From: Clostridiales bacterium
GTDB lineage: Bacteria; Bacillota; Clostridia; Caldicoprobacterales; UBA3941
Assembly (NCBI GenBank): GCA_012518075.1
Contig: JAAYTG010000106.1
Span: forward strand, 1 to 43,655
Length of the DNA: 43,655 nucleotides
Reading direction: 5' to 3'
Shown here piece by piece: positions 31,401 to 38,041 of the stretch. Under the pieces are notes generated by a model, which saw only the letters and a list, made by a program, of their open reading frames with translations, was not told the origin of the DNA and searched no databases. A program made the translations under genes and the position numbers. The stretch's first letter is position 1. The number at the start of each line of letters is the position of its first letter.

Positions 31401-32766
31401 CGAGGAATTGTTCGGGGAAGGACATGTGTTTAGGGCGGGAACTATTGGAACCATAGCAGAAAAGACCGCCTTTGGATTTGTTAAGAAATACTTAGATGAG
31501 CGGGATATGGTAGTATCTAATGCTGAGATTAAAAGGCTGGTTGCCGGATGCACAGGAGTGAAAAGGACTACAGGGCAACATCCAGGTGGAATAATGGTTG
31601 TTCCCAAGAGCAAAGAAATATACGATTTTTCTCCTATACAATATCCGGCCGACGCCAAGGGTGCAGGGGTTATCACTACCCATTTCGACTACAACTTTAT
31701 ACATGAAAACCTAGTTAAGCTTGATATATTAGGGCACGATGATCCTACAACTATTAGGATGTTGGAGGATATAACTGGACAGGATGCAAGAAGTATTCCT
31801 TTAGATGATGAAAGAACTATGTCCATATTTTCAGGTACGGAAGTCCTGAACCTTAAGCCAGAGGATATAGGAAGTGAAGTAGGCACTTTTGGAATTCCAG
31901 AGTTTGGCACAAGATTTGTCAGGCAAATGTTAGTGGATACAAAGCCTACAACCTTTGGTGAACTCATAAGAATAAGTGGACTTTCCCACGGTACTGATGT
32001 TTGGCTCAACAACGCCCAGGATTTAATTAGGAATGGTATAGCCCAGCTCTCCGAAGTTATCTCCACTAGGGACGATATAATGATATATCTAATTTATAAA
32101 GGTATAGAGCCAACCATGGCATTCCAGATTATGGAGAGTGTTCGAAGGGGTAGAGGTTTGACTCTGGAATTTGAAGAGGCTATGGTGTCCAAGAATGTGC
32201 CTGACTGGTTTATTGACTCCTGTAAAAAGATTAAGTATATGTTCCCCAAGGCTCATGCTGCAGCCTACGTGATAATGGCATTTAGGATAGCCTACTTTAA
32301 AGTTAATTACCCTCATGCTTTCTATGGGACATATTTTACAATAAAGTCAAATGATTTTGATGCTGAGATTGCTTTAAGTGGAAAGGAAGCCGTCAGGAAT
32401 TCAATAATGGAATTGGAATCCAAGGGGAATGGGATGACTGCAAAAGAGAGAAGCACCTTAACCATTTTAGAGGTGGTATTGGAGATGTATTGCAGAAATA
32501 TTCGTTTTTTACCTGTAGATTTATATCAGTCCCATCCCACCAGGTTTTCGATTGTGGATAATGCCATAAGACCTCCCCTAAATACCTTGCAGGGGGTAGG
32601 AGCAAATGCGGCTTTAAGTATTGCTGAGGGCAGGAAGCAAGGAGAGTTTATCTCTGTAGAAGACTTAAGAGAAAGGACAAGAATTACTAAAACTGCTATC
32701 GAGGTCTTAAGAAAACATGGTGCTTTAAAGGATCTTCCCGAAACTAGCCAGCTCTCCTTATTTTAA
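28489..32766 (+). CDS. polC: DNA polymerase III alpha subunit, Gram-positive type PolC
   Basis: PolC is the replicative polymerase of Firmicutes with built-in proofreading. The 1425-residue product has an N-terminal region (1-220), an OB domain (about 225-320) and a PHP domain (RVELHLHTQMSAMDG). A DnaQ-like 3'-5' exonuclease follows (about 412-580, FDIETTGLDPKKDRITEIGA), then a zinc motif (YVCPKCKHSDF ... DCPKCGTTYK) near 897, and the catalytic Asp motif PDIDLNFSGEYQ near 954. It starts at TTG 28489 with AAGGGGGA upstream. Length is close to the Bacillus protein (about 1437). The gene is followed by a 317-base non-coding region. Confidence 0.98.
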   Translation: MLIQELLGVDDNEQLEDCILKKTKVYIKERRWEIIIESPNYIDSQLIFEIEDSIKEKIGSIDDIRIIVNYPQAREWFYNNFEVAWEDIKNRICRDFPSCGRWLTNCRACFDGDELNLTFNNPLAVDLFDSQKINNYIENCIRTLFNLNCKVQMLIDQDELETHQEKYTAKKEQEDSVLIKEAINNNGQDNKFSKPGPGSLGKKGQKELLVLGKPFKGEATPIDELKEDSGRVIVKGQVFDIETRETRSGKIIFNMDITDYKNSITIKAFCNKDQADKISSLVKRDDWILIRGECVYDKYQRDVVIIFNDLMISDSEEREDNEHIKRVELHLHTQMSAMDGVSSVNSLVSRAAKWGHPAIAITDHGVLQAFPEAYMAGKKHGIKIIYGVEAYLVNDCRPMILNGNEMDFNQPVIVFDIETTGLDPKKDRITEIGAVKIVNKEVVDSFQTFVNPEVPIPAKITKLTGINDDMVKDAPLIHQALEMFKDFCGDAALAAHNAPFDIGFVREKGKDIGWKINNPIIDTLILSRELIQDLKRHRLDQVAKHFDIRLDNHHRAKDDATATGQILIKLFEMLEDMGIGRLIDINSAFTHITNINSLPSNHALILVKDKAGLKNLYKLVSKSHIDFFYRRPRIPKSVLMKYREGLIIGSGCEAGELYKAMVKGSPYNEVREIAQFYDFLEVQPIDNNAYLVREGYVEGRKALEKINKSIVKLGKKIGKPVVATGDVHFLDPQDEYFRRILMSGQGYRDADQQPPLYFKTTRDMLDDFKYLEQETAMEIVIHNPRLIADSVEEIQPIPSGLFTPEIPGAEEQISQMSWENAYRIYGDPLPDIVQKRLEKELNAIIKHGFAVLYLISHKLVKKSLADGYLVGSRGSVGSSFVAYMTDITEVNPLAPHYVCPKCKHSDFDIDKAQYGVGVDLPDTDCPKCGTTYKKDGYDIPFEVFLGFEGDKVPDIDLNFSGEYQPTAHKYTEELFGEGHVFRAGTIGTIAEKTAFGFVKKYLDERDMVVSNAEIKRLVAGCTGVKRTTGQHPGGIMVVPKSKEIYDFSPIQYPADAKGAGVITTHFDYNFIHENLVKLDILGHDDPTTIRMLEDITGQDARSIPLDDERTMSIFSGTEVLNLKPEDIGSEVGTFGIPEFGTRFVRQMLVDTKPTTFGELIRISGLSHGTDVWLNNAQDLIRNGIAQLSEVISTRDDIMIYLIYKGIEPTMAFQIMESVRRGRGLTLEFEEAMVSKNVPDWFIDSCKKIKYMFPKAHAAAYVIMAFRIAYFKVNYPHAFYGTYFTIKSNDFDAEIALSGKEAVRNSIMELESKGNGMTAKERSTLTILEVVLEMYCRNIRFLPVDLYQSHPTRFSIVDNAIRPPLNTLQGVGANAALSIAEGRKQGEFISVEDLRERTRITKTAIEVLRKHGALKDLPETSQLSLF

Positions 32767-32768
32767 GC

Positions 32769-32797
32769 TTGCATTGCGGTCCCTTTGATGCTATAAT
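32769..32797 (+). promoter_or_regulatory. Strong sigma-A promoter for the rimP-nusA-infB operon
   Basis: TTGCAT (32769-32774) and TATAAT (32792-32797) are spaced by 17 bases. The -10 is perfect and the -35 matches four of six. It begins two bases after the polC stop. It would start transcription near 32804 and drive the translation/RNA operon. Confidence 0.85.
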
Positions 32798-32830
32798 GGA
32801 TTTTAGATTAAATAGTAGGTTTGAAAGACG

Positions 32831-32849
32831 GAGTGGGGAAGCCCCACTC
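32831..32849 (+). promoter_or_regulatory. GC-rich hairpin in the rimP leader
   Basis: GAGTGGGG (32831-32838) pairs perfectly with CCCCACTC (32842-32849) around an AAG loop, one of the few GC-rich stretches in a non-coding region. TTTCGTATT follows, a weak U-tract, so it might act as a partial terminator/attenuator of the promoter just upstream, or as a structural core of the leader. GAAA (32823-32826) can also pair with TTTC (32850-32853) across a 4-base bulge. Confidence 0.7.
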
Positions 32850-33001
32850 TTTCGTATTATAAGACCCATAAATACTATTTCGAGAATTATTGAATACTAT
32901 TGAGTAAGACTAATAATAAGGTCATAAGCTAGATTAACTTCTTGTTCTAGTTGAATTGTTATAACTATAGGAAGCTAATGCTCTATTGATTAGTGAAAAT
33001 T

Positions 33002-33026
33002 CCATAGCCATTATTATGGTTATAGG
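33002..33026 (+). promoter_or_regulatory. Bulged hairpin upstream of the rimP start
   Basis: CCATAGCCAT (33002-33011) pairs with ATGGTTATAGG (33016-33026) around a TATT loop, with one unpaired A and one G-U pair. It shares bases 33002-33007 with an alternative hairpin on its left (32965-32973 with 33000-33007). No U-run follows. Confidence 0.5.
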
Positions 33027-33027
33027 A

Positions 33028-33055
33028 TTGACAATGATAAGGAGTTAACTAAGAT
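33028..33055 (+). promoter_or_regulatory. Second candidate promoter for rimP
   Basis: A perfect -35 box TTGACA (33028-33033) is followed 16 bases later by TAAGAT (33050-33055), which matches four of six -10 positions. If active it would give a short leader starting near 33062. The weaker -10 makes this less certain than the promoter at 32769. Confidence 0.4.
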
Positions 33056-33083
33056 ATAAAAGCTATAATATGGAGGTAAAATT

Positions 33084-33542
33084 GTGGCTAAGAAAAACAT
33101 GGAGCAAATTGCTGAGGAGATTGCATTACCAATACTAGACGAGTTGGGCTATGAATTAGTGGATGTAGAGTATAAAAAGGAAGGAGCCCATTGGTATCTT
33201 AGAATATATATTGATAAGCCTGGTGGCGTGACCATTGATGACTGCCAAGAGGCAAGCGACAGAATAAATACAGCTTTAGATGAAGCTGTTACTGTAACCT
33301 ATGATTTTCTGGAAATATCTTCTCCTGGGCTGGATCGCCCACTTAAGAAGGATAAAGATTTTATCCGCTACATGGGTCGTAAGGTTGATGTTAAACTGTA
33401 CAAGGCTATTAAGGGAACTAAAAATTATACTGGTGAGTTAGTAGGTCTGGTTGATGGGAACATTCACGTCACGGTGGATGGAGAGCTTATGGAGTTTAAA
33501 CGGGAAGAAGTAGCTATAATTCGATTAGCAATAGAATTTTAA
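33084..33542 (+). CDS. rimP: Ribosome maturation factor RimP
   Basis: RimP helps mature the 30S subunit. The 152-residue product begins after GTG 33084 (GGAGGT six bases upstream) and shows the family motifs LGYELVDVEYKKEGAHWYLRIYIDKPGG (as two adjoining parts), TIDDCQEASDRINTALD and LEISSPGLDRPLKKDKDF. The C-terminal part is an SH3-like domain. It heads the operon with nusA, as in most bacteria. Confidence 0.98.
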   Translation: MAKKNMEQIAEEIALPILDELGYELVDVEYKKEGAHWYLRIYIDKPGGVTIDDCQEASDRINTALDEAVTVTYDFLEISSPGLDRPLKKDKDFIRYMGRKVDVKLYKAIKGTKNYTGELVGLVDGNIHVTVDGELMEFKREEVAIIRLAIEF

Positions 33543-33578: not shown

Positions 33579-34667
33579 ATGAACGGGGAGTTTATTGGTG
33601 CTTTAGAACAGATTGCCAGTGAAAAAGGAATAGATAAGGAAACCTTAGTAGCGGCTATAGAGGCAGCTTTGCAATCCGCATATAAGAAGAACTTTGGAAC
33701 TAGTCAAAACGTAAAAATTAATATTGATAGGTTGACAGGTGTAGTTAAAGTATATGCTATGAAAACTGTTGTGGAAGAGATCAAAGATGAGACACAAGAG
33801 ATTTTATTAGAAGATGCCCGGAACATTGATTTAAAGTATCAACTGGGGGATGTAGTAGATATCGAGGTCACACCTAGAAACTTTGGGCGTATTGCGGCTC
33901 AGAATGCTAAGCAGGTAGTAATACAGCGGATAAGAGAGGCTGAGAGGACCCTTACATATGAAAAGTTTATTGAGAGGGAAAACGAGATAATGTCCTGCAT
34001 AGTTCAACGAGCAGAACGCAGAAATGTATTCGTTGACCTAGACCAAGCAGAAGGCATTATGCCTTATAACGAACAGATTCCGAGCGAACGCTATAAGGTA
34101 AATGACCGTTTGATGGTGTATATAGCTGAGGTAAAGATGACCAATAAAGGGCCTCAGATCATAGTTTCAAGGACTCATCCTAATTTAGTAAAGAGACTTT
34201 TTGAGAGGGAGGTACCGGAAATTATCCGCGGCGAGGTCATAATTAAAAACATTGCTCGCGAGGCCGGTTCTAGGACCAAAATAGCTGTTTTTGCCCAGCA
34301 CCCAAGTATTGATCCTGTAGGTGCATGTGTTGGTCAACATGGTATAAGGGTACAGCACGTGGTTGATGAGTTAAGAGGAGAGAAAATAGATGTAATCCGG
34401 TGGAGCGACGACCCAAGGGAATTTATTGGCAGCGCCTTAAGTCCGGCTAAAATCCTAAATGTTCAAATAAATGAGGAAGAAAAATCCGCCAGGGTCATAG
34501 TTCCCGATGACCAACTTTCTCTCGCTATCGGTAAAGAGGGACAGAACGCAAGGTTGGCAGCTAAATTAACCGGATGGAAGATTGATATCAAAAGCATATC
34601 CCAAATGGAACAGATTGAGAATACTCTAGAAGGGGATTTGGTAGAAAAAGAAGAAGATATGGAATAG
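33579..34667 (+). CDS. nusA: Transcription termination/antitermination factor NusA
   Basis: NusA binds RNA polymerase and controls pausing, termination and antitermination. The 362-residue product has the N-terminal polymerase-binding domain (1-125, with [14 protein letters not shown]), an S1 domain (about 132-200), and two KH domains (about 205-345: [20 protein letters not shown] and [19 protein letters not shown]). It lacks the C-terminal acidic repeats of E. coli, normal for Firmicutes. A GAGGAGGAG site precedes the ATG. Confidence 0.98.
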
Positions 34668-34678
34668 GAGGATCTGCC

Positions 34679-34954
34679 TTGAAGAGAAGAAAGGTTCCTT
34701 TAAGGATGTGTGTTGGCTGTAGAGAAATGAAGCCTAAAAAAGAATTAGTAAGAGTGGTTAGGGATCCAGAAGGTGAAATCAGCATTGATTTAAGGGGTAA
34801 AAAGGCTGGTCGCGGAGCCTATATATGTAGGGCGCCAGATTGCCTAGTAAAAACTAAGACTAATCGAATGTTAGAGCGATCATTCAACCAAAAAATACCG
34901 GACGAGATTTATGAGAAGCTAATTAGACAGATGAATGAAGGTGAGGAGAATTAA
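34679..34954 (+). CDS. ylxR: YlxR family RNA-binding protein
   Basis: The 91-residue product has the YlxR (DUF448) motif [20 protein letters not shown] near the N-terminus and [15 protein letters not shown], with paired cysteines. It starts at TTG 34679 with TAGGAGGA upstream. YlxR is a small nucleic-acid-binding protein nearly always found between nusA and infB. A link with RNase P has been proposed in Bacillus. Overlaps the next gene by about 20 bases. Confidence 0.95.
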
Positions 34955-35279
34955 CGATAGAGTGTATCAATTGATTGGGCTGGCAAAACGAGCCGGAAGA
35001 CTAGTCTCTGGCTCATATGCCGTCGAAAAAGCCATTAAATCAGGCAAAGCCCAATTAGTTATTTTAAGCCATGAGGCTTCATCCAATACCATAAAAAAGT
35101 TTTTAGACATGTGCAAGTACAGAGGAATAGATATAATTAGATTTGGAGATAGGCAAGATTTAGGCCAGAGTATTGGCAAACCAGAGCGCATTGTTTTAGC
35201 TATAATAGATCCTGCTTTTAAGAATATGATATTGGGTGCATTACCATCATCTATAATAAATATGGGGGTGAGTGATTGA
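34935..35279 (+). CDS. ylxQ: YlxQ, L7Ae-family ribosomal/kink-turn RNA-binding protein
   Basis: The product (up to 114 residues) is an L7Ae/L30e-type protein: [32 protein letters not shown] followed by [19 protein letters not shown] (short blocks of the family core). It likely binds kink-turn RNA. The start is unclear: ATG 34935 lies inside ylxR with little ribosome-site support, while a good GAGGAG at 34943-34948 favours GTG 34962, giving [12 protein letters not shown]. Its stop overlaps the infB start region. Confidence 0.92.
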
Positions 35280-37630
35280 TGTCGAAGATCAATGTATACG
35301 CAACAGCTAAGAAAGTTACAAAAGGTGCCAGGGACCTGTTGGAAGATTTGGCTGAGGTAAAGAAGGATATTGATGGATATAAGAAGACTATACAAAAGCT
35401 CAGGGACAAGCTAAATGATGAAGTAAGGGAAAAAGAATTTAAAGAAAAGGAAAAAGCTCAAAAACTTGAAGAAGAAAAACGAAAGAGACAGGAAGAAATA
35501 AAGCGGAAAGAGATAGAGAGAGCTAAGGAAGAATTAAGGCGACAAGAAGAAGAAAAAGCAAAAAAAGAATTAGAAAAAAGAGAGGCAAAGAAAGCTGTAC
35601 AAGACGAAAGAGGGATAAAAACAGGCCAAAGGTCTACGCAAACACAATTGCATGATATCGAATTCAAGGATCCTAAGCTAATCCAGGCACAAGGTTTGAA
35701 GGGACAGGATAGTCCACGTGTAAGCAAGGATGAAGACCAGATGCATAGAAGAAGGGGACGTAAAAGCAAAAAGGATCGCTGGGAAGAAAACCAATTGAAG
35801 CCTAGGTCCCAAAAGCCCAAAAACAGCAAGGCGGCAAGTAAAAAAAGACAGGAAAAGACTGAAATGATACCGGAAAGGAAAAAGGCTATTGTTATGGGTG
35901 AGATAATATCAATAAAAGAATTGTCAGAGAAAATTGGAGTGCCGGCAACGGAGATTATGAAAAAGTTAATGGGCCTGGGTATTTTGGCTACCATAAATCA
36001 AGACTTAGATTATGAAACTGCAGCTATAGTATCCGCAGAATTTGGGATTCAACTGGAACAAAAAGCAAGCAGGAGCTTTGAAGAATTATTAATAGATGAA
36101 GATATGGAGGACGATCCTTCGACCTTAGTAACCCGTCCACCTATCGTTACCGTAATGGGTCATGTTGATCACGGAAAAACATCCTTGCTGGATGCCATTA
36201 GAAGCGCAAGGGTGACAGCTCAGGAAGCTGGTGGTATAACTCAACACATAGGTGCTTATACTGTAAAGGTAGACGATAAACCTATTACATTCTTAGACAC
36301 ACCTGGCCATGAAGCCTTTACTTCTATGAGGGCTAGGGGAGCTCAGGTAACTGATATTGCTATACTGGTTGTGGCTGCCAATGACGGGGTTATGCCTCAA
36401 ACTGTAGAGGCAATTAATCATGCTAAGGAAGCGGGAGTACCTATTCTGGTTGCAATAAACAAAATTGATGTAACAGGCGCCAATCCCGATAGGGTTAAGC
36501 AAGAATTGACCGAGCATGATCTAATAGTTGAGGAATGGGGAGGGGACACTATAGCCGTTCCTGTTTCAGCCCTTCATAAAGAGGGTATTGATAACCTATT
36601 GGAAATGGTTCTTTTACTGGCTGAAATGCAGGAATTAAAGGCCAATCCCAATCGTCTAGCCAAGGGAACTATAATAGAGGCCGAGCTGGATAGAGGAAGA
36701 GGCCCTGTAGCCACTGTCCTAGTCCAAAAAGGGACCCTGAAAGTAGGAGATTCTATTGTAGCAGGTACTGCTTATGGTAGAGTTCGAGCTATGATGGATC
36801 ATAGAGGTAAAAGACTTAAAAAGGCTGGACCATCCACCCCTGTTCAAGTCTTAGGATTAACAGAAGTTCCTGAAGCTGGAGACATTATGCATTGTGTTAA
36901 GGATGATAAACTCGCTAAACAGGTGGCCGAGGAACGGAAGTTGAAGGCCAAGGAGCAGCAGATTAGAGCTTCCTCCAAATTGTCATTGGATGAACTATTT
37001 AGCAAGATAAAGGAAGGGGAAGTTAAGGATCTAAATCTCATTATTAAAGCTGATGTTCAAGGGTCCGTAGAAGCAGTCAAGCAATCCCTGGAGAAACTGT
37101 CCAATGAGGAAGTGAGAGTAAAGGCTATCCATGGAGGTGTAGGGGCCATAAACGAGTCAGACGTTATGCTGGCTACGGCTTCCAATGCTATTATTATCGG
37201 ATTTAACGTAAGACCTTCTGCAGGCGCTTCTGAACTAGCAAGCAAGGAAAAAATTGATATTAGGACCTATAGAGTCATATATAATGCTATTGAAGATATT
37301 GAAGCAGCTATGAAGGGTATGTTAGACCCAGAATATAAAGAAGTAATAATAGGGCATGCAGAGGTAAGGGAAACCTTTAAAGTACCGGGCGCTGGAGTGG
37401 TTGCTGGATCTTATGTAACCGATGGAAAGATCCTGAGAAATGCTGATGCTCGTATAGTCCGTAATGGTATTGTCATCTACGAAGGGAAAATTGAATCCCT
37501 AAGACGCTTTAAAGATGACGTAAGGGAAGTAGCCTCTGGATACGAATGTGGTATAAGCTTAGAAAACTTTAATGATATAAAAGAAGAAGATATAATTGAA
37601 GTATCAATACAGGAAGAGATTAAAAAATAA
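35279..37630 (+). CDS. infB: Translation initiation factor IF-2
   Basis: IF-2 is the GTPase that brings initiator tRNA to the 30S subunit. From ATG 35279 (GGGGGTGA site; a TTG lies one codon before) it has 783 residues. The N-terminal IF2_N unit is followed by a Lys/Glu/Arg-rich coiled coil (about 38-110), a basic linker, and a second IF2_N unit ([22 protein letters not shown], about 208-260). The G domain has [17 protein letters not shown] near 290, DTPGHEAF and NKID. Two beta-barrel domains and the tRNA-binding C-terminus complete it. The charged N-terminus produces a long antisense shadow ORF that is not real. Confidence 0.98.
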
Positions 37631-37669
37631 AGTATATTTTAGGATAATATTGAAAAGCAGGTGGATAAT

Positions 37670-38041
37670 GTGAAGCATCAGAGAATAGGCAGGATATCTG
37701 AAGAAGTCAAAAAGGAAATAAGTAGAATTATTCGGGAAGATGTAAAGGATCCGCGTATTGGACAAATGGCTTCCATTCTTCGTGCTGATGTATCTGGAGA
37801 CCTACGTCATGCCAAAATATATGTGAGTGTTCTAGGGAATGAACAAGAAAAGACATCAACTATGGAAGGGCTTGGTAGGGCCGCTGGCTTTATAAGAAAG
37901 GAACTGGGCAGAGCACTTGCTATTAGGTATGTGCCAGAGCTTACCTTTATTTTAGATACCTCTATAGAATACAGTGTAGACATTAGCAAGAAGATAATGG
38001 AGGTAAAGAGAAAACAGGAGAAATCGAATGGAGAAGAATGA
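37670..38041 (+). CDS. rbfA: Ribosome-binding factor A
   Basis: RbfA binds the immature 30S subunit and supports 16S rRNA 5'-end processing. From GTG 37670 the product is 123 residues, with RIGRISEEVKKEISRIIRE, VKDPRIGQMASILRADVSGD and VPELTFILDTSIEYS. The upstream GTG 37661 gives three more residues, but the AGGTGGA site overlaps it, so 37670 is preferred. It overlaps nrnA by 14 bases. Confidence 0.97.
   Translation: MKHQRIGRISEEVKKEISRIIREDVKDPRIGQMASILRADVSGDLRHAKIYVSVLGNEQEKTSTMEGLGRAAGFIRKELGRALAIRYVPELTFILDTSIEYSVDISKKIMEVKRKQEKSNGEE

Follow-up and report, generated by a model that had tools for sequence, protein, structure and literature searches.

A conserved promoter-proximal hairpin and putative NusA-dependent attenuator in the rimP-nusA-infB leader of a Clostridiales bacterium

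The rimP-nusA-infB operon in the stretch of DNA analysed here (43,655 nucleotides from a Clostridiales bacterium, hereafter the window) is probably controlled by a promoter-proximal transcription attenuator of the rimP-leader kind that depends on NusA, a reading to which we assign a probability of roughly 0.78; the cell most likely limits its own NusA by way of a premature stop signal. The functional core is an inner hairpin with its U-rich tail, which together resemble an intrinsic terminator placed prematurely, about 50 bases from the start of the message, and the leader belongs, as a new instance, to the published rimP-leader family. A sequence-only reading of the window had proposed a regulatory leader serving autoregulation of the NusA operon; the regulatory leader is real and autoregulation is its likely purpose. 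With a core of about 55 nt that is nearly frozen across many families of Clostridia, it offers a small, testable candidate.

The window comes from a draft genome. The nearest relative found is a “Clostridiales bacterium” metagenome assembly of the same family, its RimP 83% identical, and there was no congener among the genomes compared. The operon runs in the order rimP, nusA, ylxR, an L7Ae-like gene, infB, rbfA, and the features are as follows:

32769 to 32797, forward strand: promoter, with TTGCAT (32769-32774), a 17 bp spacer and TATAAT (32792-32797), assigned from the sequence and from promoters of this kind that stand at the corresponding position in relatives.
32810 to 32817, forward strand: AAATAGTA, conserved upstream element and candidate NusA contact; its AATAG (32811-32815) ends 15 nt before GAGTGGG.
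32830 to 32850, forward strand: terminator-type hairpin GGAGTGGGG-AAG-CCCCACTCT, from sequence, folding, a class-wide pattern and a covariance model.
32850 to 32860, forward strand: interrupted U-rich tail TTTCGTATTAT, with T in at least 90% of leaders at four tail positions.
32861 to 33083, forward strand: 3' part of the leader, ending just before the start codon and including GGAGG (33072-33076), from the lengths and sequences of the polC-rimP gaps of relatives.
33084 to 33542, forward strand: rimP, start codon GTG at 33084, with Pfam RimP_N and RimP C-terminal domains.
33579 to 34667, forward strand: nusA, with Pfam NusA_N, S1 and KH_5, of which S1 and KH are RNA-binding domains.
34679 to 38041, forward strand: remaining operon genes, from ylxR to rbfA.

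The gene polC ends at 32766 and the rimP promoter follows directly. That promoter had been called near-consensus from its sequence, which we confirmed, and it is kept in every relative read; the predicted (unmapped) transcription start at about 32804-32806 likewise bears out a leader of about 280 nt ahead of the rimP GTG. The sequence-only reading had named transcription from a promoter at 33028 alone as an observation that would speak against it, and this start was dropped since the TTGACA of that alternative promoter was not seen in the polC-rimP gaps of relatives. Beyond the hairpin the leader is longer in the window than in relatives and hardly conserved, and a search for enriched words 3' of the hairpin gave nothing convincing. 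A GAATTATTGAATACTATTGAGTAA-like block does follow the hairpin in four genomes of the window's family (window 32883-32918; L002, about 2902-2945; L005; L006; not clearly L004), for which no explaining promoter, reading frame or helix has been found so far.

The arms of the hairpin, GGAGTGGGG at 32830-32838 and CCCCACTCT at 32842-32850, enclose an AAG loop and fold at -14.9 kcal/mol, against -6.0 for shuffled sequences; the GC-rich hairpin previously placed at 32831-32849 is thus real, spans 32830-32850, and recurs in every relative read. The GGG..CCC motif of a terminator stem is present as GAGTGGGG..CCCCACTC and is conserved in 100 leaders. The foot of the stem is a weak G.U pair, the U-tract is broken by CG and A, and six only of the first nine tail bases are T, which could mean poor termination; the short RNA is predicted to end at about 32856-32860, some +50 to +56 from the start. 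The second-best match to the covariance model in the same genome (L190 1510-1545; G000:C182:17921-17965) is a hairpin behind a tRNA-Trp, AAAGAGTGGATATAATATCCACTCTTTTATTTTT, the tRNA being identified from its anticodon-loop sequence; this hairpin is an ordinary terminator with a good U-tract, its uninterrupted tail TTTTATTTTT being far better than the TTTCGTATTAT of the rimP leader.

The 3' arm and tail might also be read as a boxA-type site through which NusB-NusE would control antitermination, since CTCTTT(A) recalls the gamma-proteobacterial consensus GYTCTTTAANA (PMC5725501). However, rRNA leaders of the same class carry CYTTGAAAA, unlike the tail CTCTTTCRTATTAT, and the candidate was rejected as extremely improbable; no 16S gene was found in the window's genome, so that its own rRNA leader was not readable.

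Conservation across the class Clostridia is extensive. The exact pattern GAGTGGGN{1,8}CCCACTCTTT occurs in 127 of 291 sampled genomes, mostly once per genome, and a control pattern is almost absent from the same 291. Coordinates were listed for 106 pattern genomes, 84 of them with a listed rimP position as well; in 83 of these 84 the hairpin lies 21-298 bp upstream of rimP, and in the remaining one it is on another contig. Within the order, every one of the 27 distinct leaders (26 relatives and the window, L002 and L003 being one contig) has this core behind a promoter of the same kind. Of 80 further class leaders that we read, 44 had a listed exact pattern and 36 had none; a covariance model built mainly from the order found the hairpin in 73 of the 80, on the coding strand, a count that favours similar sequences because the model was built on this sequence, and for which the model E-values are rough. 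Judged by eye, the seven leaders missed by the model carry a different hairpin at the same place, followed by a T-run in six; a terminator thus seems to be retained even in leaders that have lost this sequence. One leader, L111 (G220), has two tandem copies of the hairpin on the reverse strand (208-249 and 256-297; 38.2 and 22.1 bits), and in another, L138 (G161), a tRNA-like sequence ending in CGACTCTCCTATGAGCTACG, called as a tRNA by eye, stands directly before the rimP hairpin and recalls the metY-rimP arrangement of E. coli.

Together with those of the order, the 73 class leaders make up 100 leaders from 43 families, in which all eight stem pairs are paired in 97-100%. Four pairs are invariant (three G-C and one A-U), a U-A pair changes solely to U-G, and the outermost and the two loop-proximal pairs vary on both sides with pairing maintained. 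The stem sequence is more frozen than a terminator needs, and something else may read it. Attenuation could accordingly be real and its signal something other than NusA, with RimP, NusG, another protein or translation reading the frozen GAGUG/CNCUC stem: four invariant pairs in 43 families go beyond the needs of NusA-assisted folding, Naville and Gautheret argued for a motif-reading protein and mentioned RimP as a possibility (PMC2965389), and NusG favours terminators whose foot is a weak A-U or G-U pair (PMC8060035). We hold such a signal to be unlikely, as the direct published demonstrations concern NusA (PMC12288461).

The position of the hairpin is fixed relative to the promoter. When the promoter was searched freely within 170 nt, the -10 box fell 23-45 nt ahead of the hairpin in 55 of 66 class-level leaders, whereas shuffling gave 14; this distance has an interquartile range of 29-37 nt and the hairpin-to-rimP distance one of 43-98, and in the window the hairpin lies 233 nt from rimP. 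The hairpin therefore keeps its place relative to the promoter and early transcript, and not relative to the ribosome-binding site. This geometry bears on the suggestion that the hairpin is a stabiliser of the mRNA 5' end, or a terminator of transcription from upstream polC, rather than an attenuator. It does lie near the 5' end and downstream of polC, and in many species the symmetric repeat AAAGAGTGGG..CCCACTCTTT could stop transcription both ways; yet it is part of the rimP transcript and keeps a constant spacing from the rimP promoter, it stays while the sequences upstream of the promoter differ among families, and its conserved U-rich tail would not be needed for 5' protection. Either role is, on balance, improbable.

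The sequence-only reading had placed the hairpin inside a larger helix and a two-state switch: AAATAGTA (32810-32817) would have two alternative partners, TACTATTT (32873) and a second copy of the right arm, TACTATT, at 32895-32901. The arms are where they were said to be, with TACTATT at both 32873 and 32895, and in a fold of the first 100 nt part of AAUAGUA is paired downstream. Such a triple arises in 2% of shuffles, a figure for a pattern chosen after the fact. The 280-nt leader holds two perfect 8-nt inverted repeats (gaps 3-70 nt), one of them the GC hairpin itself, while shuffled leaders have a mean of 0.87 and 20.6% reach two, which leaves the single outer repeat at chance level. Comparison of the polC-rimP gaps found TACTATTT in none of the 26 distinct relatives of the order, four of the same family among them; the best exact repeat around their hairpins is 4-6 nt, L027 alone having a longer one, an unrelated 10-mer. 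A ligand riboswitch or a pair of exclusive helices would be expected to show conserved alternative helices whose changes compensate, and none are seen for these unconserved arms. Moreover, the polymerase is already past the terminator when it transcribes either right arm, so that neither could decide termination. Lack of the arms in close relatives, which the sequence-only reading had itself named as evidence against it, thus holds for the outer helix, and the two-state switch is rejected as very improbable.

What does persist of the proposed left arm is an AUAG some 14 nt ahead of the stem. Of the 27 leaders of the home order, 16 have AATAG or a different NATAG whose end lies 13-16 nt ahead of the stem, and across the class 14 of 39 families have an ATAG that ends 12-16 nt before it (mean of shuffles 5.6); ATAG reached 14 families in 0 of 500 shuffles and any 4-mer at all in 1 of 500, statistics that treat related families as independent though they are not. 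With the home order collapsed to one unit the count is 11 of 36 families, which ATAG reached in 0 of 500 shuffles and some 4-mer in 113 of 500; because the home order is where the motif was first noticed, the fairer test is the figure for ATAG alone in the remaining families. When position is ignored, AATAG as a class-wide 5-mer is found in 11 families against 5.1 (reached in 7 of 1000 shuffles) and is unremarkable among all 5-mers; the signal is clearer once position is counted. No pairing was found for the element in the leader. A pairing of AUAGUA with the tail UAUUAU was also rejected, since tails taken from other families did as well as a leader's own (mean rank 0.496) and no coevolution was seen. 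In one family of the order (L020-L023 and L029) a AAGGATATAATAG-like block lies 3' of the hairpin, perhaps as a further AUAG site or as a -10 box within the leader.

The AUAG upstream element is possibly undescribed, and it may be a contact site for NusA. The RNA in the crystal structure of M. tuberculosis NusA reportedly ends in CAAUAG. The window's NusA shares the S1-KH1-KH2 domains with that protein, and the solved NusA chains matching it include the M. tuberculosis entries 2asb/2atw; the structure has S1-KH1-KH2 bound to boxC-like RNA (PMC6614801). A dedicated site for the NusA KH domains in the nascent RNA, forming with the hairpin a two-part RNA operator for gene-specific feedback, is a speculative extension of the main reading that we think unlikely. 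Were it true, a general termination factor would recognise the terminator of its own operon. The leader bears on how the operon of NusA senses NusA in particular, and both the stem sequence and the upstream AUAG exceed what a terminator needs.

For the attenuator itself we envisage a simple course of events. RNA polymerase would start at about 32805 and within about 50 nt transcribe the AUAG element, the hairpin and the imperfect U-rich tract. NusA acts at most terminators in B. subtilis. We infer that termination takes place in this organism and, since the terminator is suboptimal in foot and U-tract, that it relies on NusA for folding the hairpin and holding the polymerase; NusA aids hairpins and U-tracts that are suboptimal, and a U-tract interrupted in its distal part is typical of terminators that depend on NusA (PMC8060035). 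When NusA is plentiful, most transcripts would end in the predicted 32856-32860 interval, and when it is scarce, the polymerase would read through into rimP-nusA-infB; an antiterminator helix or small ligand would be unnecessary.

Among known systems, Rfam RF01770 (rimP) concerns the same regulated gene, and this 102-position model (gathering score 47) did not match the locus, E-values up to 10 included. The Rfam search of the window that had been called for likewise gave no gathering match, the sub-threshold matches being to unrelated families; a widespread regulatory RNA is thus overlooked by Rfam, at least in this genome. The closest counterpart is the rimP-leader motif that Naville and Gautheret (2010) reported in Firmicutes and other groups, with NusA suspected (PMC2965389). 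The two share the operon, a location within the transcript, a G-rich/C-rich stem with GGG..CCC, a T-stretch after the stem (here the interrupted TTTCGTATTAT) and the lack of a visible antiterminator. They differ in the distance to the gene, published as 4-130 nt and here 233 nt, a range we take as descriptive, not defining, given the 21-298 bp found in the class; in the AUAG element, a larger conserved element being reported absent there; and in the promoter-locked spacing, which the consulted passages of their paper do not describe. In S. agalactiae, RNA-seq of gbs0413-gbs0418 showed that one start gives rise to both short and long RNAs, with termination at +31, and the authors suggested NusA feedback (PMC4448216); likened by description, that leader has the same operon and a terminator near the transcription start and is equally not in Rfam, ending at +31 whereas +50 to +56 is predicted here. 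Finally, B. subtilis NusA is autoregulated by NusA-stimulated intrinsic termination in its own leader (Mondal et al., 2016, as cited in PMC12288461), and the likeness, again by description, is to a mechanism demonstrated experimentally there that we infer for the window.
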